Shown piece after piece: positions 9,944 to 42,070 of a stretch of 61,953 bases of DNA (position 1 is its first letter; each line of letters starts with the position of its first letter). The DNA comes from Acidobacteriota bacterium. Its GTDB lineage: Bacteria > Acidobacteriota > Thermoanaerobaculia > Multivoradales > Multivoraceae. The translations under genes were made by a program, and so were the position numbers. Where the stretch lies: the NCBI GenBank assembly GCA_003388555.1, contig QQVD01000061.1, positions 1-61,953 of the forward strand. The letters run 5' to 3'. A model generated the notes under the pieces. That model ran no database searches. It saw nothing but the letters and a program-made list of their open reading frames with translations, and was not told the origin of the DNA.

Positions 9944-11486
9944 CGGCTCCTAGCTCGCCCGCTGTCTCACCGCCGCCGGGGTCGGCGGCAGCTCGAGTCG
10001 GCAACTGTACGACGAAGCGGCTGCCTCCGCTCCTGCCTTCGCCGACCTCGATGTCGCCGTCGTGGGCGCGCACGATCGAGAGCGCCAGGGTGAGCCCCAG
10101 GCCGGTGCCGCGCGGGCCGCTGCGCTGGCTCGGCGCGCGGTAGAAACGATCGAAGATCTTGCTCCTCTCCGCGGCGGGCACGCCGGGTCCCTGGTCCTCG
10201 ACGACGAAGCAGACGCGGTCCGGCGAGCTCGGCGGCACCGCAAGGGAGGCGCCGGCGCCCGCCGCCGGGGTGGCGACGCCCTGGGCCTTCACCGCCAGGA
10301 AGACCGTGCCGGCGTCGGGCGAATGCGCCACCGCGTTGCCGATCAGGTTGGCCAGTGCGCCGACGAGCAGCGGACCGTCGCCACACAGCATCACCGGATC
10401 GCGCGCCTCCCAGACGAGACGCAGCTGCTTGCGCTCGATCTCGGTCTGGTGACGCTCGAGCGCGTCCGAGACCAGGTCGGGCGCGAGTACGGGCTGCGAC
10501 TCGAACACCACGGTGCCCGACTCCAGCCGCGCCAGGTCGAGCAGGTCGGCGATCATCCGGCTCAACGCCTCGTTCGAGCGCAGGTTGAGCTCGAGCATGC
10601 GGCGCTGCTTCGCGCTCAGCTCGCCGAGCGAGCCGTCGAGCACCAGCTCGAGCGTGTCGCGCATCGACGCCAGGGGCGACTTGAGGTCGTGCGAGATGGC
10701 GGTGACGAAGTCGCGCTTGAGCTGGTCGAGCTGGCCGAGGCGCTCGGCCATCTGGTTGAAGTCGCTGGCGAGGCGGGCGATCTCCTCGGGGCCCGGATCG
10801 CTGACCCGGTGCCGGAAGTTACCCTGTGCCAGCTCACGGGTGGCGTCGGCGAGGGCGTCGAGCGGACCGGTGATCGAACGCGCCACCACGATGGTCAGCA
10901 CCAGGGCGAGGGCGAGCGCCAGGGTGGTGCCCGCCCAGCTTCCCAGCGCGGCCTCGCGCGCCCGCTCCTCGTTGAGCACGGCCCGCTCGCGGATCGACTG
11001 CACCACGTCGCTGGCCCAGGTGTCGAGCTCCTGGGTGAGCTGCTCGATCTCGCCATCGAGGGCGCGGACCTCGGCGCCGACGTTCTCGCCGTCGAGGACC
11101 CGCTGGTCGAGCGTCGCGGAGCGCACCGCGAGCTCGCTCCAACGCGTGGCGATGAGCTGCGCCCGCTCGCCGAGCTCGGTCGAAGCGGTGAGCTCGGTGA
11201 GACGTCCGAGCAGGGCGTGCACCTCTTCGCGCTGCTGCGCGGCGCGGGTGGCGTACGCCGGATCGCGCTGGACGGCGAAACGGCGCAGCAGGTCGGCGTG
11301 CGAGAGCAGCAGGCGCTCGCCGTCGAGCGCCGAGGCGGTGGCCTCGAGGCGCACCTGGGCGAGCTCGGTCTGCGAGGCGGCGAGGCGCTCGATGACCTGC
11401 AGGTTGTAGGCGACCGCGACGCCGAACAGCGTCACCAGGCCGAGGAAGCCGAGCAGGACGCGGCTGCGCAGACTGAACCTGGTCAA
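9936..11486 (-). CDS. Membrane sensor histidine kinase, GlrK/QseE-like
   Basis: This inner-membrane kinase would phosphorylate the regulator encoded 87 bases upstream (11574-13016). Order of parts in 516 residues: TM1 (LLGFLGLVTLFGVAVAYNL), a periplasmic helical sensor region of about 150 residues, TM2 (GTTLALALALVLTIVVA), HAMP, a dimerisation helix with the phospho-acceptor His in AISHDLKSPLASMRD, and an ATPase domain with N-box LIGNAVAHS and DQGPGVP / GTGLGLTLA. The start is a TTG at 11486. The predicted four-helix periplasmic part and the neighbouring NtrC-type regulator fit the GlrK class. The stop overlaps the lipoprotein start. Confidence 0.9.
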   Translation of the reverse strand: MTRFSLRSRVLLGFLGLVTLFGVAVAYNLQVIERLAASQTELAQVRLEATASALDGERLLLSHADLLRRFAVQRDPAYATRAAQQREEVHALLGRLTELTASTELGERAQLIATRWSELAVRSATLDQRVLDGENVGAEVRALDGEIEQLTQELDTWASDVVQSIRERAVLNEERAREAALGSWAGTTLALALALVLTIVVARSITGPLDALADATRELAQGNFRHRVSDPGPEEIARLASDFNQMAERLGQLDQLKRDFVTAISHDLKSPLASMRDTLELVLDGSLGELSAKQRRMLELNLRSNEALSRMIADLLDLARLESGTVVFESQPVLAPDLVSDALERHQTEIERKQLRLVWEARDPVMLCGDGPLLVGALANLIGNAVAHSPDAGTVFLAVKAQGVATPAAGAGASLAVPPSSPDRVCFVVEDQGPGVPAAERSKIFDRFYRAPSQRSGPRGTGLGLTLALSIVRAHDGDIEVGEGRSGGSRFVVQLPTRAAADPGGGETAGELGAGA

Positions 11487-11573
11487 CTTGGATCACCCTG
11501 TTGCGGGTCACCCGGCTGCGGGAAGCGATTCACGGGCTCCCAGGTCTCCAACGGGTTCCGCGGGCGGCGCCGC

Positions 11574-13016
<1,443 letters not shown>

Positions 13017-13480
13017 GGTGCGGGCTCCTGTGGGAACTGGCGGGATCTGCGAGGGCGCGACGATCGGCTGCTACGCGACGCGTCGCGCGGGCCCCAGGCG
13101 ACGAGGGAAGTCTGGCAGATGCCGCGCCTCCGACACTGCCGCCGAGAGGGCCGCCGTCGGCTCTGCTCGCCCGGTCGCGGCGGCCCGGCCGGCGGAGCCG
13201 CGGGAGCCCACGGAGCTTCCCGCAGGCCGGGCGCCGCGCCGCACCCGCCACTCGCGCCCTCCACTGGTGGCCCGGGTGGGGAACGCGATCTCTCGGCGGG
13301 CGGGACGAGCCCTTCCCGCCGCAATCGCCCGCCGTCGGATCAGCCTGGCGGGTGAACGGCGGGAAGGGATCGGCGCGGCGCCCGGCTCCGCGCTGGCCGC
13401 GGCCTCTCCCTCGGGCGATCGCGGGAGGAAGGCCGCGGCGTCGGTGGAGCTGGACGCTCTCCGCAGCGGGTGGACGGTCG
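13017..13480. other. Intergenic region upstream of the two-component genes
   Basis: These 464 bases separate the Pal-like gene stop from the regulator start, both on the minus strand. No gene, repeat or clear terminator was seen. The regulator's Shine-Dalgarno AGGAG lies at its right-hand end as read here. Confidence 0.5.
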
Positions 13481-14173
13481 TTACTTCAGCACCACCAGCG
13501 ACACGCGGCGGTTCTGGCGGCGACCCTCGCGGGTGTCGTTCGGCGCGATCGGCGAGGTCTCGCCGTAGGAGATCACCTGCATGCGGTGCAGCGGCACCTG
13601 GTGCTCGGCGCGCAGGTGCAGACGCACCGCCTCGGCGCGCTCGAGCCCGAGCTTGCGGTTGTAGGCGGGATCGCCGGAGGAGTCGGTGTGGCCCTGGATC
13701 TCGATGAAGACGTTCTCGTTCTCGGCGTAGAGCTGCTCGGCGAACTCGGCCAGCGCCTGCTTGCCCTTTTCGTCGATCGTCGCGTCCTCGAGCCCGAAGG
13801 TCAGGGCGTCCTGGGTCAGCAGGGTCTCGGAGACGAACTGCCCCTGGGCCAGCTTCCCGGCCTCCTGGGCGCGCTGCAGCGCCTCCTGTGCAGTCTTCGA
13901 CAGCTCCTCGGTGCGGCGATCGAGGCCGTCGATCCGCTGGCCCTGGCGGTCGACCTGCGACTGCACCTCCTCGACCTCGCCCATCACCTCCTGCTGCGAG
14001 GCCTCGATCTGGCGGGTCGTCTCCAGGCGCTCGTCGGCGGCGCTGGAGCGCACGAAGCCGCGGCTGGCGCAGCCGGTGGCGACGATGGCGACGGCCGCGG
14101 CGATGCCGATCGACTGGAGAGCATGGGACAGTCGTGCGGAGCGACTGGCGGTCGGGGTCGGTTGGGTGGTCAT
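13481..14173 (-). CDS. OmpA/Pal-family peptidoglycan-associated lipoprotein
   Basis: This is a lipid-anchored envelope protein expected to tether the outer membrane to peptidoglycan. The 230-residue product starts MTTQPTP, preceded by a GAGGAG ribosome site. A signal peptide ends in the lipobox IVATGCASR (Cys near residue 34). A coiled coil follows (residues about 45-105). The OmpA domain has GHTDSSGDPAYNRKLGLERA and RRQNRRVSLVVLK, including the Asp and Arg that bind diaminopimelate. The longer frame to 14401 has no family support. It is monocistronic by spacing and lies far from tol genes, which are not in the window. Confidence 0.92.
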   Translation of the reverse strand: MTTQPTPTASRSARLSHALQSIGIAAAVAIVATGCASRGFVRSSAADERLETTRQIEASQQEVMGEVEEVQSQVDRQGQRIDGLDRRTEELSKTAQEALQRAQEAGKLAQGQFVSETLLTQDALTFGLEDATIDEKGKQALAEFAEQLYAENENVFIEIQGHTDSSGDPAYNRKLGLERAEAVRLHLRAEHQVPLHRMQVISYGETSPIAPNDTREGRRQNRRVSLVVLK

Positions 14174-14791
14174 CGGACTCCTCCTCGGGTGCCGGTCCTC
14201 CTGCCCGTGGGGGCTGCGGGGCTGCCGGCGTGGTCTTGGTCGGGGGTGCTCTGCGTGAGCGCGTCGGGGATCAGATCGGCCTCCGCCGCGGACGCCGACC
14301 GCAGAGGCGGCGCTGCACGACCGGGGCCGTGCCGACCACCTCTTCAACCCGCGTGCCCGGTCCGCCGCGCAGTGCACAGGCAGTGCATCGAGAGGAGGCA
14401 CCGGGCGGTCGAGGCGCCGCAGCGCGAGCGGCCGAGAGTCTTCGCCGCGGCGACGGAGGCGTCGCCCCGTCCGGTCGGAAACCCCTCGTATGGCAGGGAT
14501 TTACGGCCCCTCGGTTGCGGCTGGCGAATTCGACCCGAATCCCGGGTCTCGGGTCTGCCGCCTGATGCTCTCGGCGTCGCGGAGGTCCGTCAGGCCCAGG
14601 GCGCGTGCGAGTGGCGGCGCGGACCGGCAGGGGCCGGCAGGGAGCGACGCCCGGGCAGGATTCCCTGCAGCAGGGAAGATCGCCCCGGTGGGACGCGGCG
14701 GCGGGCGTGCACCGATCGCGGCGGCCGCCGGCAGTGGCCCCGGGTCAGGCTCGCGAACCGAGGGTGCCGGTGCGGCGCGTATGCTCACCGC
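14174..14791. other. Intergenic region between divergent genes
   Basis: These 618 bases lie between the Pal-like gene (minus) and a lipoprotein gene (plus). Open frames here are GC artefacts without domain content. A small direct repeat CGGGTCT occurs near 14549-14562. No convincing promoter could be chosen. Confidence 0.45.
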
Positions 14792-16141
14792 GTGTCGCCC
14801 GCTCCAACGCAGCTCAGCAGGCCACGGCCCGCCCCGGTGCGGCGCGCGTGGCGCTGCCGCCGCGCAAAAGGCGCCTGGCTCGCGGGCGTCCTGACCGTGT
14901 CGTCGAGCCTGGGTGTGGCCTCGTGCTCCCGCCTCGGCGAGGAGGTCGCATCGCTCGAGCTGGTGGGATCGAAGCCGGACCTGGAGCGGTTGCTGCGGCT
15001 CTGCGCCGCGGTCTCGAAGGGTCCGCTGCCGCGAGCGTGTGGCGAGCTGCTGGCCGCCAGCGAGGGGCTCGCCTGCCCGCGGATCGAGGCCCGCTGTGCG
15101 CCGGGCCGCATGCACTGCGACCTGGCGGCGGCGCTGCGCTGCGCGGTCGACGGTCCGCAAGCGGAGGAGCCAGGACCGGATGAGGACAGTTGGCGGATGT
15201 CCGGCCCGCTCACCACGGAGGGCGGTTCCTGGTCGCTGCGCGGCGGCAGCCTCGAGGGCCAGGCCGACGTGCTGCTCGAGCTGACTCCTCCTGCTGGCAG
15301 CGGCCTGCGCCGCGCCTTCGACTGGCTGCCGCAGACGCCACTGCCCGGGGAGCCTCGCCTCGCTGGCGCCGGCGCCGCGGCGCACCTGCGCTGGCGGCCG
15401 CGCGGCGGCATCGACCTGACGGCTCGCTCGGGCGAACCGTCGATGGCGGACCGTCTCTACGGGCTGCGCAACGAGCTGTTCAGCCAGGCGGTGCTCGACG
15501 GCTCGCTCGAGGCGGTGCTCTATCCGCCGCGGCAGGGAGGCGAGTTCCCGGGGCTCGCGGCGGCCTTGGGAGTGCGCGTTCCGAGCGCCGCGGTGGCGGC
15601 GATGGAGCGCTATCTCGACGACGTGCAGCGGCAGTGGCCGTTCACCCGGCAGCCGTACACCGCTTCCACGGCTCCCTCCGCGAACGACGCGGAGCCGGCG
15701 CGCCGCGGCACCTGTCTGGTGGGGCTGCGGGTGCTGCCCGAGCTGGCGCCGTGTTACGTGCTCGACGACGACGCCCTGGTGCTGGGTTGGAACCGCGACG
15801 TGCTCGAGCGGGCGCTGGCGGTGGCGGACGTCACCGCGACGGCGACGGTGGCAGCCTCGGCCACGGAGCAGGCCTCACCGCTGCTTGCCTCCGGTGAGCT
15901 GGCGCGGCTCGACTTCGCCCTGTGGGAGCTCGCCGACCGCCGTCTGGCCGCGGCGCGCCAGCGCCGCCCCGGGCTGAGCTATCCGCTGCGCGATCTGCGT
16001 GTCTCCCTCGATGGCGCCACGACCGGTTCCCGCGGCGAGGTGCGGCTGCGGCTGCGCCTGGGCGGGCTCTCCGACGCCTCCCCTCCTGCCGGGTCGGCGC
16101 CCGCGGAGACCGCGGCGGCGGCCGCCGGAGGCGGTCGATGA
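14792..16141 (+). CDS. Putative lipoprotein of unknown function, partner of the downstream AlkP-superfamily protein
   Basis: From the GTG at 14792 the product is 449 residues with a basic N-terminus, a hydrophobic stretch and a lipobox LGVASCSR (Cys near residue 45). Six further cysteines lie within the next 75 or so residues, possibly as disulfides. The rest is a mixture of strands and helices, including WRPRGGIDLTARSG and RLYGLRNELFSQAVL; no known domain is recognised. The stop overlaps the start of the next gene (ATGA), so translation is coupled and the two products probably work together at the envelope. No clear ribosome site is visible before the GTG, so the start is provisional. Confidence 0.75.
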   Translation: MSPAPTQLSRPRPAPVRRAWRCRRAKGAWLAGVLTVSSSLGVASCSRLGEEVASLELVGSKPDLERLLRLCAAVSKGPLPRACGELLAASEGLACPRIEARCAPGRMHCDLAAALRCAVDGPQAEEPGPDEDSWRMSGPLTTEGGSWSLRGGSLEGQADVLLELTPPAGSGLRRAFDWLPQTPLPGEPRLAGAGAAAHLRWRPRGGIDLTARSGEPSMADRLYGLRNELFSQAVLDGSLEAVLYPPRQGGEFPGLAAALGVRVPSAAVAAMERYLDDVQRQWPFTRQPYTASTAPSANDAEPARRGTCLVGLRVLPELAPCYVLDDDALVLGWNRDVLERALAVADVTATATVAASATEQASPLLASGELARLDFALWELADRRLAAARQRRPGLSYPLRDLRVSLDGATTGSRGEVRLRLRLGGLSDASPPAGSAPAETAAAAAGGGR

Positions 16142-18525
16142 GCGAGGCGGCCACGAACGATCCATCGCGCGGACGCCTGGTGCTGCGGGTCGTCCTGCTC
16201 GTTCTCCTGCTGGCGGTCGCCGCGGTCCTCGCCGTGCGCGCAGTGCGCCAGGTGCGCACGCTGGCGGCGGTCGACGAAGTCTGCGAGGCGGTGGGTGCCG
16301 CCGACTACGACGCCGCGGTCGAAGCGAGCGGAGAGATGGAGCGTCTGTTCGCCGCCAGCCTGAAGCGCTCGTCGGACGCGGCCTCGCGGCTGGTCGAGTG
16401 CCGTTGCGCGGCGCTGTCGGCGCGCGGTGAGGAGCTGCAGTGCCGGCGGGAGGTGGCGGAGCTGCTGCTGGACGAGCACGGCGTCGGCTGGGCGCCGCAG
16501 CGGCCGCTGCTGGTCACCGGAGTCGACCAGCTGCTCGCCGACGAGCGGCCGCGGGAGGCCTGGCGCGCGATCCAGCGGGCGCGGCAGGCGAGCGGCAGCC
16601 CGGATCTGCTGCGCGAGCTGGAGCTGGTGGCGCGCCTGCGCTTCGAGCCGGAGGAGGTGGCGCGCCAGGTGACCGCGGCGCGCCAGCGTGGCGAGGCCCT
16701 GCCGCCCGAGATCGTGTACACGGTGGTCGCCGAGTCGCTGAGCGGCTCGCGCCCCGAGGAGGCGATCGAGCTGCTGGGTCCGGCGCCGGGCGCCGAGGCG
16801 AGCGCCGAGGTGGTCGACCGCTGGTACGCGCTGCGCAGCGGCGCCGAGGCGCAGCGCGGCTCGCTGCAGGGGGTGGTCGGCGCGCTCGACGCGTGGCGTC
16901 GGCGGGGCCTGGGCGAGGAGGAGTATCGGGCCCGCCTCGGCCTGCTGGCCGGGAACTGGTGGCTCACCTCGAGCGAGCGCCAGATCGAGCTCCTCACCGC
17001 GGCGCTGCCGGGCGAGGAGCGGCTCGAGGATCCGGATCTGGCTGTGCTGGTGCGCTCGCGCCTGGTGCGCATCCTCGCCTCGCAGGGGCAACTCGAGCGT
17101 GCATTGCGCCTCTACGACGACTCGATCGAGCGCCACGGCCGGCTCGTCGGCCTCGATCGCGAGGAGCTGGTGCGGCTGCGCCTCGAGAGTCGCGACGAGC
17201 GAGCGGGCGAGCGGGCGACGTCGAGCGCGACTCTGGTGGTCGACGGCCTGCGCGGCGGCGATCGCCTGAGGCTCAGTCCGCCGCCCGGCGCTGCGGCGGA
17301 CGCGGAGCTCTCCGAGCTGGTGGCGCGCGGTTCCTCGCTCGTGGTCGAGCGCCCGGCCGGGGAGCGCCCGCTGTGGTGGCTGGTGCGCGATGCCGAAAAC
17401 CGCATCGTCGGGCGCGGCACCGTCTGGCTGACGCCAGGGGCACGGAGCACCGTGGTGCTCGAGCGCCGGGACCAGGCGGCTTCCGCGCCTCACACCGAAC
17501 CCGCCGTGCCGGCACGGCCGACGGCCGGCGACGGGCGGCGCCGGGTGGTGCTGGTGCTGCTCGACTCCGCCGACTGGCGGATCGTGCGTTACCTGCTCGC
17601 CGCCGACGAGGTGCCGGTGCTGGCGCGCCTGCTCGAGCTCGGCACCCGGGCGGTGATGCTCAGCGATCCGCCGTACACTGCCGCGGCGCTGGCCAAGCTG
17701 ATCTCGCCCGGCGCCGACACCTTCGGCCTGGTGGAGCTCTTCCACCAGCTCGGCCAGGAGGTCGAGGCGCTCGACTTCGTCGGCCGCAACCCGGTCTCGT
17801 TCCTCGAGGCCCTGCTGCCGGGCAACCAGAATCTGTTCGAGGTGGTCGGCGCCGGCGAGCGTCAGGCGCTCAACCTGCTGCAGGCGGTCGGGGCGGTCTC
17901 CGAAGAGCGCAACGCGACCCTGATCGGGCCGGGCGGTGAGCGCCGCGTGCAGGGCGGTCTGCAGGGGACGAGGCAGCTCACCGCCGAGGAGATCGCGGCG
18001 ATCCCCGGCCTCGAGCGCGATCTGGAGAGCGACAGCGGTCGCCATCTCGGCGAGGCGGCGGGCGAGCTCGACAACGTGCTCGCGGTGCTGCGCGGCGGTG
18101 AGGTCGACCTGATCGCCGCCCGGGTCGCCAGCCTCGACCTGGTGACGCACGCCACCTTCGGACCGCTGGCCGAGGAGGGACAGCACGATGGCGACCTGGC
18201 GCTGCTGCGCTTCTACCGCTACCTCGATCTGCGCCTCGGCGAGGTGCTGCGGGCGATCGACGCCGACGACCTGCTGGTCGTAGCGTCCGACCACGGCGCC
18301 CGCACCTCGTTCGAGCACGACGAGGAGTCGCTTTTCGTCGCCGTCGGACCGGGTCTCGCGGGCGGCGGCAGGGTCGAGGAGGATCTCTCGATCGACGGCA
18401 TGGGGTGGTGGATCGCCCGTGCGCTCGGCTTCGAGCGCGACTGGCCGCGCGGCGGCTTCGAGAGCCTGGCCGGAGCCGCGGCGGCCGAGCTCTCGCGCGG
18501 CGGAGCCGAGCCCTCCGACGGCTGA
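16138..18525 (+). CDS. Membrane-anchored alkaline phosphatase superfamily protein (type I phosphodiesterase-like) with helical repeat region
   Basis: Of 795 residues, 14-36 form one transmembrane segment. Residues about 40-370 are helical and TPR/SEL-like (for example REAWRAIQRARQASGSPDLL), and a small beta-rich linker follows. From about residue 466 the AlkP-superfamily domain begins with VVLVLLDSADWRIVRYL (metal Asp) and PPYTAAALAKLISPG, where the Thr matches the nucleophile position of type I phosphodiesterases. It ends with VVASDHGARTSFEHDEE (metal Asp-His). The likely reaction is hydrolysis or transfer at a phosphodiester or phosphoanhydride; the substrate is unknown. Start at ATG 16138 overlaps the upstream lipoprotein stop. 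Confidence 0.85.
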   Translation: MSEAATNDPSRGRLVLRVVLLVLLLAVAAVLAVRAVRQVRTLAAVDEVCEAVGAADYDAAVEASGEMERLFAASLKRSSDAASRLVECRCAALSARGEELQCRREVAELLLDEHGVGWAPQRPLLVTGVDQLLADERPREAWRAIQRARQASGSPDLLRELELVARLRFEPEEVARQVTAARQRGEALPPEIVYTVVAESLSGSRPEEAIELLGPAPGAEASAEVVDRWYALRSGAEAQRGSLQGVVGALDAWRRRGLGEEEYRARLGLLAGNWWLTSSERQIELLTAALPGEERLEDPDLAVLVRSRLVRILASQGQLERALRLYDDSIERHGRLVGLDREELVRLRLESRDERAGERATSSATLVVDGLRGGDRLRLSPPPGAAADAELSELVARGSSLVVERPAGERPLWWLVRDAENRIVGRGTVWLTPGARSTVVLERRDQAASAPHTEPAVPARPTAGDGRRRVVLVLLDSADWRIVRYLLAADEVPVLARLLELGTRAVMLSDPPYTAAALAKLISPGADTFGLVELFHQLGQEVEALDFVGRNPVSFLEALLPGNQNLFEVVGAGERQALNLLQAVGAVSEERNATLIGPGGERRVQGGLQGTRQLTAEEIAAIPGLERDLESDSGRHLGEAAGELDNVLAVLRGGEVDLIAARVASLDLVTHATFGPLAEEGQHDGDLALLRFYRYLDLRLGEVLRAIDADDLLVVASDHGARTSFEHDEESLFVAVGPGLAGGGRVEEDLSIDGMGWWIARALGFERDWPRGGFESLAGAAAAELSRGGAEPSDG

Positions 18526-18538
18526 GCCGCGCCTTTCC

Positions 18539-19399
18539 TCAGGCGGCAGAGCCGGGTCCCAGCGGCAGCACCAGGCGCACCCGGGCGCCGGCGCCGGCCG
18601 CCGAACGCACCGCGAAACGGGCGTCGAAGAGCTCGGCGCGGTCGCGCATGCCCCTCAGTCCGCTGCCGGACCCGCTGGCGGTGTCGAGCTGGCCTGCGGC
18701 GTCGAAGCCGCGACCGTCGTCCTCGACCCACAGCTCGACCGCCTCCGGCAGCCGGCGCAGGCCGATCTCGATCCGCTGCGCCCGCGAGTGCCTGACGGCG
18801 TTGGCCAGCGCCTCCTGGGCGACGCGGAAGAGCAGCGTCTCGTGCTGCTCCTCGAGGCGCGGCTCGAAGTCGTCGATCCGGGTCTCGATCTCGACCGCCC
18901 CGACGTCGCGGGACGGCGCCGCGCCGGCGCCATGCGACATCGATCGCGCCAGCCAGCGCAGCGCCGGGCCGAGACCGAGGTCGTCGAGGATCGAGGGTCG
19001 CAGCAGGCGCGACAGATCGCGCGTCTCGGCAAGGGTCCGGGCCGCCAGCGCGGCCAGCGCCTCGACTTCGTCGCGGATCTCGTCCGGCAGCGGCGGGTCG
19101 CTCTGCAGCAGCCAGTCGAGCCGGGTCTTGAGCGCGGTCAGGCTCTGCCCGAGGCCGTCGTGCAGCTCACGCGCGACCCTTCGCCGCTCCTGCTCCTGCA
19201 CGTGCCAGACCGAGCGTGCGACGGAGCGGAACCGGCGCTCTCCGTCACTCAGCCTCTCGAGCAGCGCCTCTCCCTGACGCTCGAGCCGGGCGAGCTCGTC
19301 GGCCAGTCGCCGCGGTGCCCCGGCGGCCTCACCACGCCCGTCGGTCGTGCCGTCGACGTTGTCGGCGGTGGCTTCATCCGGCCGCCTGCGTTCGCTCAC
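18539..19399 (-). CDS. Cytoplasmic NarX/DegS-type sensor histidine kinase (HisKA_3)
   Basis: This 286-residue protein has no transmembrane segment. An N-terminal coiled coil (LADELARLERQGEALLERL) leads to the phospho-acceptor motif RRVARELHDGLGQSLTALKT. The ATPase has EALANAVRHSRAQ, VEDDGRGFD and SGLRGMRDRAEL. Such kinases normally phosphorylate NarL/LuxR-type regulators, and one lies 6 kb away at 25715 on the other strand. Its start overlaps the Ser/Thr kinase stop by ATGA, so sensing may reach it through the kinase-TPR protein or the FHA-GAF protein. It has no own sensor domain. Confidence 0.93.
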   Translation of the reverse strand: MSERRRPDEATADNVDGTTDGRGEAAGAPRRLADELARLERQGEALLERLSDGERRFRSVARSVWHVQEQERRRVARELHDGLGQSLTALKTRLDWLLQSDPPLPDEIRDEVEALAALAARTLAETRDLSRLLRPSILDDLGLGPALRWLARSMSHGAGAAPSRDVGAVEIETRIDDFEPRLEEQHETLLFRVAQEALANAVRHSRAQRIEIGLRRLPEAVELWVEDDGRGFDAAGQLDTASGSGSGLRGMRDRAELFDARFAVRSAAGAGARVRLVLPLGPGSAA

Positions 19400-22300
19400 G
19401 GCGCGTTGCCGAGCGCGGCGTCGACCCGCCGTGCCTCCTGCACCACCGTGAGTTGTGCGAAGGAGCTCGCCGCGGCGTCCGGCAGGTTGGCCTCGAGGCG
19501 TCGCAAGGACTCCTCGACCGTCTGTGCCGCGCGCCGCCGCTCGCCCTCGTCGTCGCTGGCGCGATGGAGCATGTGGGCGAGCACGAAGGAGCGCCGCCAG
19601 GGGCCGACACGGTCGGCCAGCACGAGCGTCTGGCGCGCCAGATCCGCCGCCTGAGTGCGTTCGCCGGAGCCGCCGGCCTCGAGCAGTGCCCGGGTCAACA
19701 CCTCGCCGGCGAGCAGGCGCATACGCGCGTGCCCCAGGATGCGGGCCCGCTCGACGAGCTGCCGCGCCGCCTCGGGGTCGATGCGCCGGTCGAGCGAGAT
19801 GGCGCGGTCGAGCTCGGCCTCCAGCGCCGGCCGATCGCTGCCGCTCTCGCGTGCGGCCCGGATCGCCTGTTCGAAGGCGGCGAGTGCAGCGGCGTCGGCT
19901 CCGGCGAGGACCTCGCTGCGTCCGCGCAGCCGACGCAGGAAGCTGATCTGCTCGAGGTTGCCGACCTCCTCGACGCTCGCTGCGGTCTGCTGGAGACCGG
20001 CGAGCAGGCCGTCGAGGTCACCGATCTCGGCGCGGGTCTCGAGCGCCGCCAGCTGGTACTCCGCGACACCTCTCGCGTCGCCGCTCTCGTGGAGCACCTC
20101 GATCGCCTCGCCGAAAGCCTCGAGCGCCGCCGCGAAGCGGCCCTGCTCGAAGGCGAGCCGTCCGAGCTGTCCGTGGGACACTGCGACCACCGTCGCGTCG
20201 CCGAGCTCCCTGCCGAGCTCGAGGGCGCCGAGGTACGAGTTCGTCGCCTCGTCCCAGTCGCCCCTGGCGAGCTGCAGCTGACCGGTCGACTGCAGCGCCA
20301 GCGCCTCGCCCCACGAGTCGTCGTTCTTGCGGTAGAGGTCCAGCGCCTGGCGGCTGTAGGCGAGACCGTTGTCGAAGTCGCCGAGCAGGTAGTAGGTGAA
20401 GCCGATGTTGTTGAGGCTCTGGGCGATCAGCCGCTCGTCGCCGAGGTCGCGCTGCAGGCGCAGCGCCTGGCGGTAGTTCTCCAGCGCCGCCTCGTAGTTG
20501 CCCTGCTCCTCGGCGAGCACGCCGAGGTCGTTGAGGAAGTCCGAACGCAGCGAGCTGGCGCTGTTGCTGTCGAGAGTCTCGAGCAGCTGCAGCCCTTCCT
20601 CGAGACGCGCGCCGGCGCGCTCGAAGTCGCCGCGTAGAGTGGAGATCAGCGCCAGATTGCGCAGCGTCGACGCCGATCCGGACCGGTCGCCCTGCCGGCG
20701 CCGGATCTCGAGCGCCTCGACGTAGCGCTGCTCGGCGCCTTCGAGATCTCCGAGCTGACGCAGCGCCACCCCGAAGGCATTGAGCACTTCGGCCTTGCCG
20801 CGCTCGCTGCGCAGCTTGTTCTGCGTCACCAGGGCGCGCACCAGGTACTCGTCGACGGCGCGCCTGGGATCGCCTGCGAGGATGGTGAACTTGCCCAGCA
20901 GGTACCAGGCGCGCGGATGGTCAGGGGCCGCTTCGACGATCGAGCGCAGCAGCTCGATGGCCCGCGACAGCTCGCCCTGGTCGCCCAGCGCGGTGGCCAG
21001 GAGTACGCCGCTCTCGAGGTCGCTGGGATAGATCGCCACCAGCTCCTCGAGGATTCGGATCGAAGACTGCAGATCTCCCACCACCCGCGCCCGTTGCGCC
21101 CTGGCGAGACGGGCGGTGCGGTCGGAGCGCTCGCCGGCGGTGGCGACCGCGCGTTCCGCGGCTGCGAGGGCGCCGCTCGAGTCGCCGTCCTCGAGCCGCA
21201 CCTCCGAGAGGTGGGTCCAGGCCGCCACCCAGTCGGGATCGATCTCGGTGGCGCGGCCTGCCGCCGCGACCGCCGCCGTCAGGTCGCCGCTCGCGAGCAG
21301 CCGCTGAGACTCGGAGAGCTGGCGCAGCGCCTCGGGATCCCGGCTGCGGCGTGAGCTGGGCCGCACGTCGCGGCGTCGCGCCACCTGGGCGCCATCGAGG
21401 GCCGCATCGGAGAGACGTGAGGCGAGCTCCGCCAGCTCGCCGATCTCGCCCTCGAGCGTCGCCAGCCGGCTGGACTGCTCACTGGAGGCGTCGTAGCGCC
21501 GCAGCTCGACGATCAGACGCCCGTCGCCGTCTCCCGAGGTCACCGAGCCGTAGAGCAGCGAGCCGACGTCGAGCAGGTCGCTGGCCTGTGCCAGCTCTGC
21601 GCGCGGCCAGTTGCGGCGGTCGATGCGCAGATCGCGCAGGAGCTGGTTGGTGCGCTCCTCGTCGACGACACGCACGCTGGGCTGTTCGGCGAGAAGGACG
21701 GAAAGCGACTCGGCGAGCGCTTCGCCGGTCCAGTCGAGATCGGGCGAGCTGCCGGGATGGGAGAAGGGCAGCACCGCGAGGGTCGCACTGGCCGCCTGGC
21801 GGAAGTCGGGTGTCGTCGGTGCCACATCGGCGGTTGCGTCGGGAGAGTTCGACCGGCTGAGCAGGTAGAGGCTGGAGATCGCGGCGACGGCGAGAGCCGC
21901 GGCCGCGACGCCGAAGCGGCGTCTCCGCTGCAGCCGTCGAGCCCGGTCGGCGACGATCACCCCGGTGTCCGCCACGATGCGGCGGTCGGCGTCCGGCACG
22001 GCTCGTGCGTCGAGCGCGTCGAGCACGTCCTCGGCGGTCTGGAAACGCTCGTCGGGATCGGTGGCGAGCAGCTTGTCGAGGATCTGGGTCAACCAGGCGG
22101 GCAGATCGGGTGCCGCGACGTGGATCGGGCGGGTCCTGCCGCCGACCCGCTGCGCCATCCGCTCGGTCGCCGTCTTGCCGGTGTACGGAGAGTCGCGGGT
22201 GAGCATCTCGTAGAAGATGAGCCCGAGCGAGAAGAGGTCGCTGCGCGCGTCGACGGGGTCGCCCATCGCCTGCTCCGGCGACAGGTAGTCGAGCGTGCCG

Positions 22301-22887
22301 ACGACGACGCCGGGCGCGGTGAGGCCGGCGTCGTCGACCGAGCGGGCGATGCCGAAGTCGGCGATCCAGGCCCGGCCGTCGTCGTCGACCAGGATGTTCG
22401 CCGGCTTGAGGTCGCGGTGCACGACGTTCTCGGCGTGCGCCGCGGCGATGCCTTCGAGGAGCTGACGGAAGATGTGCAGCGCCTCCTCGACGGGGAGCGC
22501 CCCCCGGCGCAACCGCTCGCGCAGCGAACCGCCGCGTACCAGGTCCATGGTGATGAACATGCGGCGGTCGCTGAAGCCGAGATCGTGGATGCGCACCACG
22601 TTGCGGTGGCTGACCTGCCTGGCCAGCAGCAGCTCGCGACGGAATCGTTCCAGCGTCGCGGGATCGGCGCCGCGTTCGATGTGCAGCAGCTTGACGGCGA
22701 CGTCGATGTCGAGCTCCTCGTCGTGTGCCGCGTAGACGATGCCCATGCCGCCGAGGCCGAGCGAGCTGACGATGCGGTAACGGCCGGCGAGGAACTGCCC
22801 CGGGGCCAGGCCGGGCGGTTCGACCGCCTGGGTCCTCTCGTCGCCGTCGTCGCCGGGCGGCTCCGGCCTGCCGCGATCCTCGCTCAC
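19396..22887 (-). CDS. Ser/Thr protein kinase with one TM segment and long TPR array
   Basis: The GTG at 22887 overlaps the FHA-gene stop (GTGA) and gives 1163 residues. The kinase domain spans about 36-300: glycine loop LGLGGMGIVYAAHD, catalytic Lys in VAVKLLH, HRDLKPANILVDD, ADFGIARS and GTLDYLSPEQ. One transmembrane helix follows near residue 345-365 (FGVAAAALAVAAISSLYLL). Next comes a TolB/FlgO-like domain (ATLAVLPFSHPGS...LAESLSVLLAEQPSVRVVDE), then about a dozen TPRs up to the C-terminus (for example ALENYRQALRLQRDLGDE). The frame upstream of the GTG is the FHA gene in another frame. It likely phosphorylates or recruits through the adjacent FHA protein. Confidence 0.93.
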   Translation of the reverse strand: MSEDRGRPEPPGDDGDERTQAVEPPGLAPGQFLAGRYRIVSSLGLGGMGIVYAAHDEELDIDVAVKLLHIERGADPATLERFRRELLLARQVSHRNVVRIHDLGFSDRRMFITMDLVRGGSLRERLRRGALPVEEALHIFRQLLEGIAAAHAENVVHRDLKPANILVDDDGRAWIADFGIARSVDDAGLTAPGVVVGTLDYLSPEQAMGDPVDARSDLFSLGLIFYEMLTRDSPYTGKTATERMAQRVGGRTRPIHVAAPDLPAWLTQILDKLLATDPDERFQTAEDVLDALDARAVPDADRRIVADTGVIVADRARRLQRRRRFGVAAAALAVAAISSLYLLSRSNSPDATADVAPTTPDFRQAASATLAVLPFSHPGSSPDLDWTGEALAESLSVLLAEQPSVRVVDEERTNQLLRDLRIDRRNWPRAELAQASDLLDVGSLLYGSVTSGDGDGRLIVELRRYDASSEQSSRLATLEGEIGELAELASRLSDAALDGAQVARRRDVRPSSRRSRDPEALRQLSESQRLLASGDLTAAVAAAGRATEIDPDWVAAWTHLSEVRLEDGDSSGALAAAERAVATAGERSDRTARLARAQRARVVGDLQSSIRILEELVAIYPSDLESGVLLATALGDQGELSRAIELLRSIVEAAPDHPRAWYLLGKFTILAGDPRRAVDEYLVRALVTQNKLRSERGKAEVLNAFGVALRQLGDLEGAEQRYVEALEIRRRQGDRSGSASTLRNLALISTLRGDFERAGARLEEGLQLLETLDSNSASSLRSDFLNDLGVLAEEQGNYEAALENYRQALRLQRDLGDERLIAQSLNNIGFTYYLLGDFDNGLAYSRQALDLYRKNDDSWGEALALQSTGQLQLARGDWDEATNSYLGALELGRELGDATVVAVSHGQLGRLAFEQGRFAAALEAFGEAIEVLHESGDARGVAEYQLAALETRAEIGDLDGLLAGLQQTAASVEEVGNLEQISFLRRLRGRSEVLAGADAAALAAFEQAIRAARESGSDRPALEAELDRAISLDRRIDPEAARQLVERARILGHARMRLLAGEVLTRALLEAGGSGERTQAADLARQTLVLADRVGPWRRSFVLAHMLHRASDDEGERRRAAQTVEESLRRLEANLPDAAASSFAQLTVVQEARRVDAALGNAP

Positions 22888-23873
22888 CGGGACGGCGCTC
22901 GTTCGGCGTCCACCGGCGGCGGCGTCAGGCTCCGCCGCGACGACGCTCCGGGCGGTAGGTGCGGATCGTCTTGCCTCGCGCGGACCTCGAGCGAGGCGAG
23001 CTCGGCGCGCAGCCGATGCACCTCGAGGGCCAGGGCGGCGTGGCTCGCGATCGACTCGAGCATCTCGACGTCGAGCGCGTCGAATACCCGACCGGTCTGT
23101 CGACTGTCGAGGTAGACCACACCTTCGACCGTGTCGTCGAGGCGCAGCGGTAGGCAGACGAGACACCGGATGCCGCCTCGCGCGACGCTATGGTGGTGGG
23201 CCAGAGAAGAGACGCAGCTGGCGTCGGCGGTGACCACGGCGCGGCGCTCGCTCACCGCACGCCGAACGGCGCTGGTGCTACCGGTGAAGTTGGGCTCGCC
23301 GATCTCGTCGGGTTCGATGCCCGAGGTGGCGACGAGCTCGAGCGCCTGTGGATCGGAGCCGAGCATGACGAAGCCTCGACTGGCGCCGCAGACCCGACGG
23401 CAGCTCTCCAGCAGACGCCCCAGCAACTCCTTCACCGAGCCGGCGTCGTCGAAGCGCAGGCGGCCGAGGCCGGTACGCAGGCCGGAGACTCTCTCCAGCT
23501 CCTCGGCCCGCAGGGTCGCGGCGTCGACCGGCTCGGCGACGATGGTGACGGTGTGGCCGAGCCGGATCTCGGTGGACCGGTGGATCGCTGCCTGCTCGAC
23601 CCGCAGCCCGTCGACCACGATGCCGTTGGTGCTGCCGGCGTCGACGATCGACCAGCCCGAGGAGTCGTGGAGCAGGCGGGCGTGCTCACGTGACAGCTGC
23701 GGGTCGTCGATGACGAGGTCACACAGCCGGCCACGGCCCACGGTGACGACCGGATCGGTCTCCCAGACGGCCTCGCATCGGGGGGCGCCGACGCTGTGGA
23801 GGATCGTGAGTCGTAGGGGCACCTGGAACCCGGCTGCCCGCGTGGTGACGACGCGGGGAGTGAACGACTGCAC
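22884..23873 (-). CDS. FHA-GAF signalling protein
   Basis: This 329-residue protein combines a phosphothreonine-binding FHA domain (residues about 45-105; VGRGRLCDLVIDDPQLSREH and GSTNGIVVDG) with a GAF domain (about 150-295; LLESCRRVCGASRGFVMLG, LVCLPLRLDDTVEGVVYLD). A C-terminal coiled coil (LALEVHRLRAELASLEVRAR) and a Pro/Ser tail follow. It is the first gene of an overlapping three-gene unit with the Ser/Thr kinase and NarX-like kinase, so it probably docks on a phosphorylated site of that kinase and adds a small-molecule or redox input. The GTG start at 23873 has no visible ribosome site; GTG near residue 19 (VPLRLTI) is an alternative. Confidence 0.9.
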   Translation of the reverse strand: MQSFTPRVVTTRAAGFQVPLRLTILHSVGAPRCEAVWETDPVVTVGRGRLCDLVIDDPQLSREHARLLHDSSGWSIVDAGSTNGIVVDGLRVEQAAIHRSTEIRLGHTVTIVAEPVDAATLRAEELERVSGLRTGLGRLRFDDAGSVKELLGRLLESCRRVCGASRGFVMLGSDPQALELVATSGIEPDEIGEPNFTGSTSAVRRAVSERRAVVTADASCVSSLAHHHSVARGGIRCLVCLPLRLDDTVEGVVYLDSRQTGRVFDALDVEMLESIASHAALALEVHRLRAELASLEVRARQDDPHLPPGASSRRSLTPPPVDAERAPSR

Positions 23874-39383: not shown

Positions 39384-39459
39384 GGGCCGCTAGCTCAATT
39401 GGCAGAGCAACAGACTCTTAATCTGTGGGTTCTAGGTTCGATTCCTAGGCGGCTCACCA
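39384..39459 (+). tRNA. tRNA-Lys(CTT)
   Basis: A 76-base cloverleaf with acceptor stem GGGCCGC/GCGGCTC (one G-U pair), anticodon stem ACAGA/TCTGT around CTCTTAA giving anticodon CTT, T-arm GGTTCGATTCC and encoded CCA. Confidence 0.97.
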
Positions 39460-39588
39460 CCTCGCCCCACTTCTCCAGGCTTCGAGCGAGTCCTCCAGCC
39501 GAGCGCACTGGACTCGTCGCACGAGGGCGCCGCGCTCCGCTGGCCGGGAGAGCCGTGGAGCCGCGTCAGCGGCCCGAGATCGGCACCG

Positions 39589-39673
39589 GCGAAAGTGGCG
39601 GAACTGGTAGACGCGCCAGACTTAGGATCTGGTCCCGCAAGGGGTGGGGGTTCGAGTCCCCCCTTTCGCACCA
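39589..39673 (+). tRNA. tRNA-Leu(TAG)
   Basis: An 85-base tRNA with a long variable arm. Acceptor stem GCGAAAG/CTTTCGC, anticodon stem CCAGA/TCTGG around CTTAGGA giving anticodon TAG, T-arm GGTTCGAGTCC and encoded CCA. It lies 45 bases upstream of tig. Confidence 0.97.
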
Positions 39674-39718: not shown

Positions 39719-41287
39719 ATGAGTGTCGTTCTCTCCACCGAAGACGTGGGCGCCAGCCGCAAGGCGGTGACCATCGAGGTCCCGTTGCCCGCCGTCGAGG
39801 CCGAGCTGCAGCGGGTGGTCAAGATGTACGCCCAGCAGGTCCGCCTGCCCGGGTTCCGCAAGGGCAAGACGCCGGCGGCGATCGTGCGCAAGCGCTTCCG
39901 CAGCGAGATCGACCAGGAGGTGCTGGAGCGACTGATCCCGCGCTACTGGAAGCAGGCCCAGGCCGAGCAGTCGATCGAGCCGCTGCTGCAGCCCACGGTG
40001 GGCGACGTGCAGCTCAAGGACGGCGAGCCGCTGGTGTTCACCGCCACGGTGGACGTCCGGCCGGAGGTGGAGGTCTCGAGCAATCGGGACTTCGACCTGC
40101 CGGACAGCGAGGTGCTGGTCGGCGACGCCGAGGTCGAGTCCTTCATCGAGCGGTTGCGCGAGCAGCAGGCCGACTGGGACCCGACCGAGCGCCCGGCGGC
40201 GCGGGGTGACCAGGTCCACCTGAAGATCCGCGAGGCGACGTCGGCGCCGTCCGAGACCGCCGAGACCGCCGAAGCGTCCAGGGAGTCGGCAGCCGGGTCC
40301 GGCGCCGAGGAAAGTGGCGACGCCGACGAGGCGGCCAGCGACGACTGGCAGGACCTCACCATCGAGGTCGGTCAGGAAGGCCTCTGGGAAGAGCTGAGCC
40401 TGGCGGTGACCGGATTGGAGAAGGGGCGCACGGCCGGCTTCGAGCGCCAGGAGCCGCAGGCTCCGCAGGCCGAGGGCGCCGAGCCGCAGATGCGCACTCG
40501 CAAGTTCGACCTCGAGGTGCTCGAGGTGCGCGAGCGTCGGCTCGGAGAGCTGGACGACGCGGCGGCGAAGGCGCTGGGCTTCGACACCGTCGCCGAGTTG
40601 CAGAAGCGCGTGCACGACTCGTTGCTCGCCGAGAAGCGCCGCGAGCGCAGCCGCGAACGGGAGCAGAAGATGTTGGAGCAGCTCGTCGAGCGCCATCCGA
40701 TGGAGTTGCCCGAGCGGGTGGTCGAGGCCGAGGTGCAGTCGATGGCCCGGGACTACGCCGAATCGCTGCAACAGCGTGGCGTCGATCTGCAGAACGCCGG
40801 CATCGACTGGAAGGACCTCTTCGAACGTATGAAGCCGCAGGCGGAGCGTCGGGTGCACGCTCGCCTGGCGGTCGACGCGGTTGCCGCTCACGACGGAGTC
40901 GCGGTGAGCGAGGAGGAGCTGGAGCACGCGCTGGCGCAGATCGCCAGGAGCCAGAAGCAGAGCACGGTCGCGGTGCGCGCCGCCCTCGATCGCGACGGAC
41001 GGCTGCAGGAGCTGCGTCAGCAGATGCGTCGCGAGAAGACGGTGCGCCTGCTGCTCGGCGAGGACGCCGACCTGACCCGCGATGACCACACGCACGAGCA
41101 TTCGCACGACCACGACCACGATCACGATCACGATCACGACCACGGTCACCACCACGACCACTCGCACCATCACGATCACTCCGACCACGACCACTCGCAC
41201 GATCACGATGCCGTCCCCCGGGCGGGCGGTGACGAGGCTCAGGTCGAGGAGCCGGCGCGGGCCGACGAGGACCCGTCGACGCCCTGA
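39719..41287 (+). CDS. tig: Trigger factor with a histidine-rich C-terminal tail
   Basis: Trigger factor is the ribosome-bound chaperone and peptidyl-prolyl isomerase. The N-terminal domain has VRLPGFRKGKTPAAIVRKRF, which includes the ribosome-binding GFRxGK-type motif. The PPIase-like domain (about residues 150-285) carries an Ala/Glu/Ser-rich insertion at about 180-210. The helical C-terminal domain follows. The product is 522 residues, about 90 longer than E. coli Tig. The excess comes partly from a tail (nt 41081-41210) with about 22 His alternating with Asp, then an acidic end. GGAG nine bases before ATG 39719 sets the start. Confidence 0.96.
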   Translation: MSVVLSTEDVGASRKAVTIEVPLPAVEAELQRVVKMYAQQVRLPGFRKGKTPAAIVRKRFRSEIDQEVLERLIPRYWKQAQAEQSIEPLLQPTVGDVQLKDGEPLVFTATVDVRPEVEVSSNRDFDLPDSEVLVGDAEVESFIERLREQQADWDPTERPAARGDQVHLKIREATSAPSETAETAEASRESAAGSGAEESGDADEAASDDWQDLTIEVGQEGLWEELSLAVTGLEKGRTAGFERQEPQAPQAEGAEPQMRTRKFDLEVLEVRERRLGELDDAAAKALGFDTVAELQKRVHDSLLAEKRRERSREREQKMLEQLVERHPMELPERVVEAEVQSMARDYAESLQQRGVDLQNAGIDWKDLFERMKPQAERRVHARLAVDAVAAHDGVAVSEEELEHALAQIARSQKQSTVAVRAALDRDGRLQELRQQMRREKTVRLLLGEDADLTRDDHTHEHSHDHDHDHDHDHDHGHHHDHSHHHDHSDHDHSHDHDAVPRAGGDEAQVEEPARADEDPSTP

Positions 41288-41482: not shown

Positions 41483-42070
41483 ATGTTCATCCCCTACGTG
41501 GTCGAGCAGACCAGCCGCGGCGAGCGGTCCTACGACATCTACTCCCGCCTGCTCAAGGACAACATCATCTTCCTCGGGCGGGCGATCGACGACGATCTGG
41601 CCAACGCGGTGATCGCGCAGATGCTCTTCCTCGAGTCGGAGAACCCCGAGAAGGACATCTTCCTCTACGTGAACTCGCCCGGTGGCTCGGTGACCGCAGG
41701 CTTCGCCATCTACGACACGATGCAGCACGTCAAGCCCGACGTGGCGACACTCTGCGTCGGTCAGGCGGCTTCCTTCGGCGCCGTCCTCCTGGCCGGCGGC
41801 GCCAAGGGCAAGCGCTACATCCTCCCCAACAGCCGGGTGCTGATCCACCAGCCGTGGGTGACCGGGCTCGGCGGGCAGCAGTCGGACATCGACATCCACG
41901 CCCGCGACCTGCTGAGGATGCGCTCGCGGATCGACGAGGTGCTGGCGCAGCACACCGGCAAGTCGATCGAGGAGATCCACGCCGACACTGAGCGCGACAA
42001 GATCCTCGAGGCGACCGCGGCGGTGGAATACGGACTGGTCGACAAGGTGATGGAGCGCGGCGACCGCTGA
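41483..42070 (+). CDS. clpP: ATP-dependent Clp protease proteolytic subunit
   Basis: ClpP forms the tetradecameric serine protease chamber used by ClpX. The start [20 protein letters not shown] is canonical; an ATG at 41450 would add 11 residues not seen in the family. Catalytic Ser is in [11 protein letters not shown], His in [12 protein letters not shown] and Asp in ADTERDKIL. Length is 195 residues. AAGGAGGA lies 12 bases before the ATG. Order tig-clpP-clpX-lon is conserved in many bacteria. Confidence 0.97.

Follow-up and report, generated by a model that had tools for sequence, protein, structure and literature searches.

Does a run of histidines at the end of a trigger factor (TF) make this chaperone a metal-binding protein, or is it a repeat tolerated in a part of the protein that is free to vary? 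The question is raised by the tig gene of an Acidobacteriota bacterium, which lies in a contig of 61,953 nt (QQVD01000061.1, the whole of which was analysed and is referred to below as the window). It is addressed here from the gene itself, from the TFs of related genomes, and from the metal proteins and other histidine tracts of the same genome.

The trigger factor and its histidine block

The features of the locus are listed in Table 1. The deduced Tig protein passed the full-length family model TIGR00115 with 276.2 bits over residues 14–446 (cut-off 180.2) and contains the Pfam domains Trigger_N (116.5 bits) and Trigger_C (99.7 bits); SurA_N was matched below threshold, and no match to FKBP_C was found in this protein at E 0.1. 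Its translation reads MSVVLS...LLGEDADLTRDDHTHEHSHDHDHDHDHDHDHGHHHDHSHHHDHSDHDHSHDHDAVPRAGGDEAQVEEPARADEDPSTP to the stop codon. The ATG start is backed by a near-invariant MSVV start among relatives in a 40-row alignment, consisting of the window TF and 39 TFs of the order (39–52% identity). In the same alignment, positions G45, F46, R47, G49, K50 and P52 of GFRKGKTP are invariant, and we take this sequence (GFRxGxxP) to be the ribosome-docking signature. An AlphaFold model has a confident body (mean pLDDT 86.0, pTM 0.74), and the first 14 PDB matches obtained with it in Foldseek (E up to 0.001) are all TFs or TF domains, with 2vrh as the best match (E 2.7e-21) and 2vrh and 1w26 (E. coli TF) coming first. 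The whole-chain TM values against 2vrh are modest (0.51/0.59), perhaps because of domain orientation. The window gene encodes a genuine TF with an intact core, sharing family, domains and fold with E. coli Tig and with its relatives; three named records found, with TFs 48–49% identical to it, are an Acidobacteria gp7, a Thermoanaerobaculia and a Holophagales MAG. The low-complexity insertion in the middle, FKBP-like part is predicted to be disordered (pLDDT <50 at residues 178–185, 187–191 and 193–207).

Table 1. Coordinates of tig, its parts and its downstream neighbour in the window
Feature	Position	Strand	Basis
tig, trigger factor, 522 aa	39719..41287	+	TIGR00115, Pfam Trigger_N/Trigger_C, alignment, AlphaFold, Foldseek
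GFRKGKTP signature, residues 45–52	39851..39874	+	40-row alignment
Low-complexity insertion rich in Ala/Ser/Glu/Asp, about residues 171–210	40229..40348	+	sequence; pLDDT
His block, residues 457–497	41087..41209	+	translation, TRF period 6, pLDDT
TF end, 25 residues past the His block, partly acidic	41210..41284	+	sequence
clpP, usual downstream neighbour of tig	41483..42070	+	ATG 41483 taken as start, downstream of AAGGAGG

Compared with E. coli Tig, the window TF adds a His/Asp block of 41 residues and a further 25 residues past the normal C-terminal domain. The block, which comes after a linker following the last body helix, consists of 22 His, 12 Asp, 4 Ser, 1 Thr, 1 Glu and 1 Gly, and is predicted to be disordered (pLDDT <50 at residues 467–498 of the AlphaFold model); no Cys is present in the tail. 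The first-pass annotation had described a tail of 43 residues with about 22 His at 41081–41210, which is correct to within two residues. In all six frames of the window, this is the most His-rich 43-residue stretch (22 His), the next non-overlapping stretch having 9. The 25 residues past the block resemble the tails of many relatives that lack a His block.

At the DNA level, TRF reported an imperfect array of the hexamer CACGAT at 41105–41209 (period 6, 18 copies, 72% matches), in which exact repetition with period 6 extends over 23 bases at most. Since the array is of this kind, slippage probably helped to build the tract.

Three other features of the window were recorded. Genes for tRNA-Lys(CTT) and tRNA-Leu(TAG) lie directly upstream of tig (39384–39673), the Leu gene ending 45 bases before the start codon. 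Three large gene-like frames (965, 929 and 867 aa) at 10062–18525 are without a Pfam hit at E 1e-5. On the minus strand, positions 19396–23166 encode a protein kinase of 1256 aa with a long TPR region.

Distribution of the tails among trigger factors

Of 60 relatives, 59 have a Trigger_N match, and one TF was read in each of these (n = 59); 58 of these have a complete tail, the TF of G034, the second genome of genus g14, ending at a contig edge. At least 5 His are present in 5 of the 58 complete tails of the order, distributed over four genera: 22 in the window genome (G000), 11 in G002, 9 in G058, 8 in G031 and 5 in G047. G002 belongs to another genus of the window's family (f1), G058 and G031 to one genus of family f9, and G047 to family f4. 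No His was found in 52 of the 58 tails, and one tail has a single His. Within the window's own family, the TFs of all 21 genomes of genus g2 and of G003 of genus g4 have tails without His; the window genus itself is represented by one genome only. Since most tails of the order are devoid of His, the His tail is dispensable for TF.

A profile built from the TF C-terminus and tail matched 70 of 72 genomes of the order and returned His-rich tails in the same five only (25 TFs were read again; G432, G436 and G438 were judged by profile ends alone). Across the phylum, the profile matched 362 of 396 genomes, with about 150 places among the matches listed; of 66 TFs from outside the order that were read among these, a single one is His-tailed. 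Given the score that a long His tail adds, the matches beyond those listed probably do not carry one. The view that such a tail is unusual for TF is thus borne out in both sets. The exception outside the order is the TF of G385 (L133), whose tail, VHENHEHDENCDHEHQHEHPHGD, is of a His/Glu/Asn type and includes a Cys; its gene is AT-rich and uses CAT, GAA, AAT, CAA and TGT codons in the tail, with no hexamer or CAC-GAY repeat. Cys is present in two of the TF tails, those of G002 and G385. Since the G385 tail has no CAC-GAY repeat, the recurrence of His tails on TF is at the protein level and not only by hexamer slippage.

On a tree of the 59 TF cores with the tails excluded, whose deep branching is weak and in which G002 sits on a long branch, the His-tail character requires at least 3 changes within the order, and G385 adds a fourth occurrence outside it. 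The two cases in family f1, the window TF and that of G002, may or may not represent one gain. The TFs of G031 and G058, which belong to the same genus, are about 92% identical, and their tails, with 8 and 9 His, differ in sequence; composition has been kept and sequence has changed. These two different tails make it plausible that the tract is prone to length change, as had been proposed from the repeated codons. Tails of the relatives in general vary freely in length and make-up, being acidic, Lys/Ala-rich or nearly absent. Another lineage-specific kind was observed in genus g5, where the TFs L024 and L058 (of G024 and G032) end in Lys/Ala-rich tails of 78–85 residues.

As read from these sequences, the His tail is no fixed trait of TF; it is patchy and recurs in separate lineages of the phylum. 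The first-pass annotation had reasoned that relatives lacking any His tail, with the tract as an isolated repeat expansion, would speak against a metal role, and had suggested an alignment of Tig C-termini across related genomes. The tails read here support one half of this argument, as most relatives are without a His tail, but not the other, as the tract is not isolated.

Two further sources were set aside. The motif HDHDH was matched in 254 of 396 genomes of the phylum; however, most of the 30 loci among the matches listed lie, by eye, in frames unlike genes (each locus being judged on one strand, fourteen on the minus strand and the others on the plus strand), and the figure was not retained as an estimate of tail frequency. 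Among these loci, four frames look real, and we take them to encode a LarC-like protein (L090), a thioredoxin-like protein (L098), a 7TM-HD hydrolase (L079) and an FkbM-type methyltransferase (L101). TFs from a plasmid collection (31 records) were also rejected as evidence, since none covers 80% of the query and several of the records are chromosome-sized.

Metal clients, gene neighbourhood and other histidine tracts

Profile searches of the 60 genomes were used to look for enzymes that a metal-carrying TF might serve. HypA was above the cut-off in 18 genomes, including the tailed G031 and G058, and had no match in the tailed G000 (the window genome), G002 and G047, the last being 82% complete. 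Urease had no match in the window genome, and its matches in 3 of the 60 genomes are all barely above the cut-off. Two FKBP_C matches were found in the window genome, neither with a His tail. Nitrile hydratase was above the cut-off in 29 of the 60 genomes, with 22 strong full-length matches in the window genome and throughout genus g2 (21 genomes), a genus in which the TF tails are free of His. No nitrile hydratase match was found in the tailed G002. Weak partial matches (about 28 bits) were found in two tailed genomes, G031 and G058, as well as in G003, G026, G032, G043, G053 and G055, and G000 has two extra matches of this kind. Since neither HypA nor nitrile hydratase tracks the TF tail, no enzyme client is indicated, and a link of the tail to hydrogenase maturation, urease or nitrile hydratase was rejected. 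With no HypA match and no His-tailed FKBP in the window genome, the route by which SlyD serves hydrogenase has no visible counterpart here. The suggestion that the tail delivers metal, in the sense of a dedicated Ni role, therefore finds no support in the absence of HypA and urease matches and of a His tail on either FKBP.

The gene neighbourhood is equally silent. It had been proposed that TF might sense metal for the clpP-clpX-lon block downstream. Among 59 loci examined, one of which ends at a contig edge, clpP lies downstream of tig in all 58 that could be judged, whether or not the TF has a tail; since clpP accompanies tig in either case, the neighbourhood is uninformative on the tail, and sensing for the clp block is left unsupported.

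To place the tract among others of its kind, the window genome was searched for the patterns H-x-H-x-H-x-H-x-H (31 overlapping sites at 11 places) and HDHDH (8 sites at 4 places, two of them shared with the first set), giving 13 places in total; proteins in which many His residues are spaced differently would escape such a search. Four of the 13 places lie in credible genes: 1) tig itself. 2) A CDF cation exporter, matching TIGR01297 with 299 bits. 3) A NicO-like Ni/Co transporter, matching PF03824 with 30.5 bits, just above the cut-off of 27.7, and falling far short of the thresholds that NCBIfam sets for its transporter models. 4) A nitrile hydratase accessory protein, matching TIGR03889 with 57 bits, whose gene is just downstream of that for the alpha subunit of a nitrile hydratase; this subunit contains the motif CTLCSC and is presumably of the Co type. 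The three credible tract genes besides tig all encode metal proteins, which suggests that such tracts otherwise mark metal proteins in this genome, although the sample is small.

The accessory protein (L066 1126–1557; contig C15, near 127146–128150) ends in HGHDHSGHDHDHLHPHDHRHDERERR. In the four g2 relatives in which it was read (L195–L198) it is also His-tailed, ending in HGHDHRHDRDHHHEHSMENDE, so that the tail of the accessory protein looks conserved.

The remaining places were discarded. In L202, the tract is at residue 58, ahead of the part matched in Pfam as acyl-CoA dehydrogenase (115–501). L065, L067, L208, L209, L211, L224, L228 and L229 have a composition like that of non-coding DNA and no Pfam match (E 0.001); in these eight frames, third-position GC is 0.48–0.77 and lies below first- or second-position GC. 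NCBIfam also gave a match to the zinc-uptake protein ZrgA, which at 18.9 bits is below the cut-off of 185 and was rejected as due to low complexity.

Possible roles of the tail

His-rich metal-binding tails on chaperones are known. Those at the C-terminus of SlyD proteins are 2–50 residues long, contain many His and Cys residues and take up Ni, Zn and Co; the E. coli protein, which has 13 His and 6 Cys, can hold as many as seven Ni (PMC10653786). Like the window TF, SlyD is a cytoplasmic folding factor with a His-rich C-terminal extension of variable length. However, SlyD is an FKBP-type PPIase with an IF chaperone domain, whereas the window protein is a TF with a ribosome-docking domain and Trigger_C; the SlyD tail is rich in both His and Cys, whereas the window tail lacks Cys; and, with HypA unmatched, nothing in the window genome was found to correspond to the part that E. 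coli SlyD plays for hydrogenase. The closest logic is that of the H. pylori GroES (HspA), whose His/Cys tail is described as absent outside Helicobacter and as behaving like a Ni sequestration domain (PMC7840056). Both are general chaperones with a candidate or established metal-sequestering C-terminal extension, that of HspA having been gained in one lineage. HspA differs in being a GroES, in the Cys content of its His-rich tail and in that its Ni role has been studied. The C-terminal region of H. pylori SlyD is reported not to be needed for its nickel effect (PMC7840056); a tail of this kind therefore need not have an obvious role. A His-rich terminal segment serving as a metal store is a further likeness to UreE and HypB. 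These are Ni chaperones with His-rich ends that serve urease or hydrogenase, unlike the situation in the window genome, in which neither urease nor HypA was matched. Among the open-licence PMC articles listed in full-text searches, none describes a His-tailed TF in its title or opening lines.

We consider it somewhat probable that the tail is a disordered metal-binding extension like those of SlyD and HspA, which would act as a buffer of divalent metal near nascent chains. Because TF is plentiful and works where nascent chains leave the ribosome, a buffer in that place is the best reading of a tail on this protein. It is supported by the recurrence of the tails on TF in separate lineages and by the finding that the other credible H-x-H genes of the genome handle metals. 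From its composition and the precedents above, the tail would be expected to bind several Zn, Ni or Co ions; with 22 His, uptake of several divalent ions would follow from chemistry, and the tailed TF could soak up excess metal in the cytosol while keeping metal near nascent chains. It might further be guessed that the metal modulates TF, as Ni does the isomerase of SlyD, or passes to a client. Three points speak against a metal buffer: most relatives lack the tail, no client was seen, and the nickel effect of H. pylori SlyD does not depend on its C-terminal region. Thus, of the original proposal that the TF stores or delivers metal, storage by a SlyD-like tail is retained as the best reading, and neither dedicated delivery nor sensing for the clp genes has support.

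The main rival, to which we would give perhaps one chance in a few, is that a CAC-GAY hexamer grew by slippage in a fast-evolving tail without function, any metal binding being incidental. This would agree with the freely varying tails of the relatives, whether acidic, Lys/Ala-rich as in L024 and L058 or almost absent, and with the imperfect hexamer array of the window tract. It would also agree with codon usage, as GAT encodes 6 of the tail's 12 Asp residues but 12 of 132 when the remainder of tig is pooled with clpP, clpX and lon, which is as expected of copied units or relaxed codon choice. However, TF His tails occur in at least four separate places in the phylum, one of them free of repeats, and the other credible His-tract genes of the genome encode metal proteins. 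His also appears to be kept more than its partner residue. When six tails are read as an alternation of two positions, a residue other than His stands at 7 of 67 His positions and one other than Asp at 34 of 68 partner positions (Fisher p ~6e-7), and in the window tail alone the figures are 0 of 20 and 9 of 21 (p 0.001). Three reservations apply: some of these tails depend on one another, units may have been copied together with their variants, and the alternation was phased on His. The comparison mildly favours selection for His over the partner residue.

Less probable still is a role unrelated to metal, in which protonation of His serves as a pH switch altering the contacts of TF with ribosome or substrate, or the tail merely aids solubility. 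From general chemistry, 22 imidazoles would titrate near neutral pH, the residues after the His block are partly acidic, and several relatives have TF tails with a high charge. However, the H-x-H spacing is also found in the His loops of two metal transporters of the same genome, and Cys is present in the TF tails of G002 and G385, both of which are more in keeping with metal. Finally, that TF is a dedicated metallochaperone passing Co or Ni to one enzyme, such as a Co-type nitrile hydratase, is very improbable: the genome does have a nitrile hydratase with CTLCSC, presumably of the Co type, and a His-tailed accessory protein, but that protein is His-tailed by itself in the four g2 genomes read, where the TFs have no His, G002 has the TF tail and no nitrile hydratase match, and G000 has no HypA or urease match.

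The preferred reading of a metal-buffering tail has a bolder form, namely that TF has repeatedly become a ribosome-docked metal reservoir with Zn, Co or Ni held at the exit tunnel, and to this we attach only a slight chance. It is not settled how new metalloproteins come to be loaded with the correct metal, or whether loading takes place while they are being synthesized. If the tract is a mere tolerated repeat, it would have little significance beyond providing a native IMAC handle for TF and the chains bound to it. If the reservoir reading is true, metalloproteins may be metallated while they are being synthesized, or be kept from the wrong metal. As the tails occur in several lineages, tailed and tail-less TFs would form natural pairs that bear on a possible link between translation and metal buffering.
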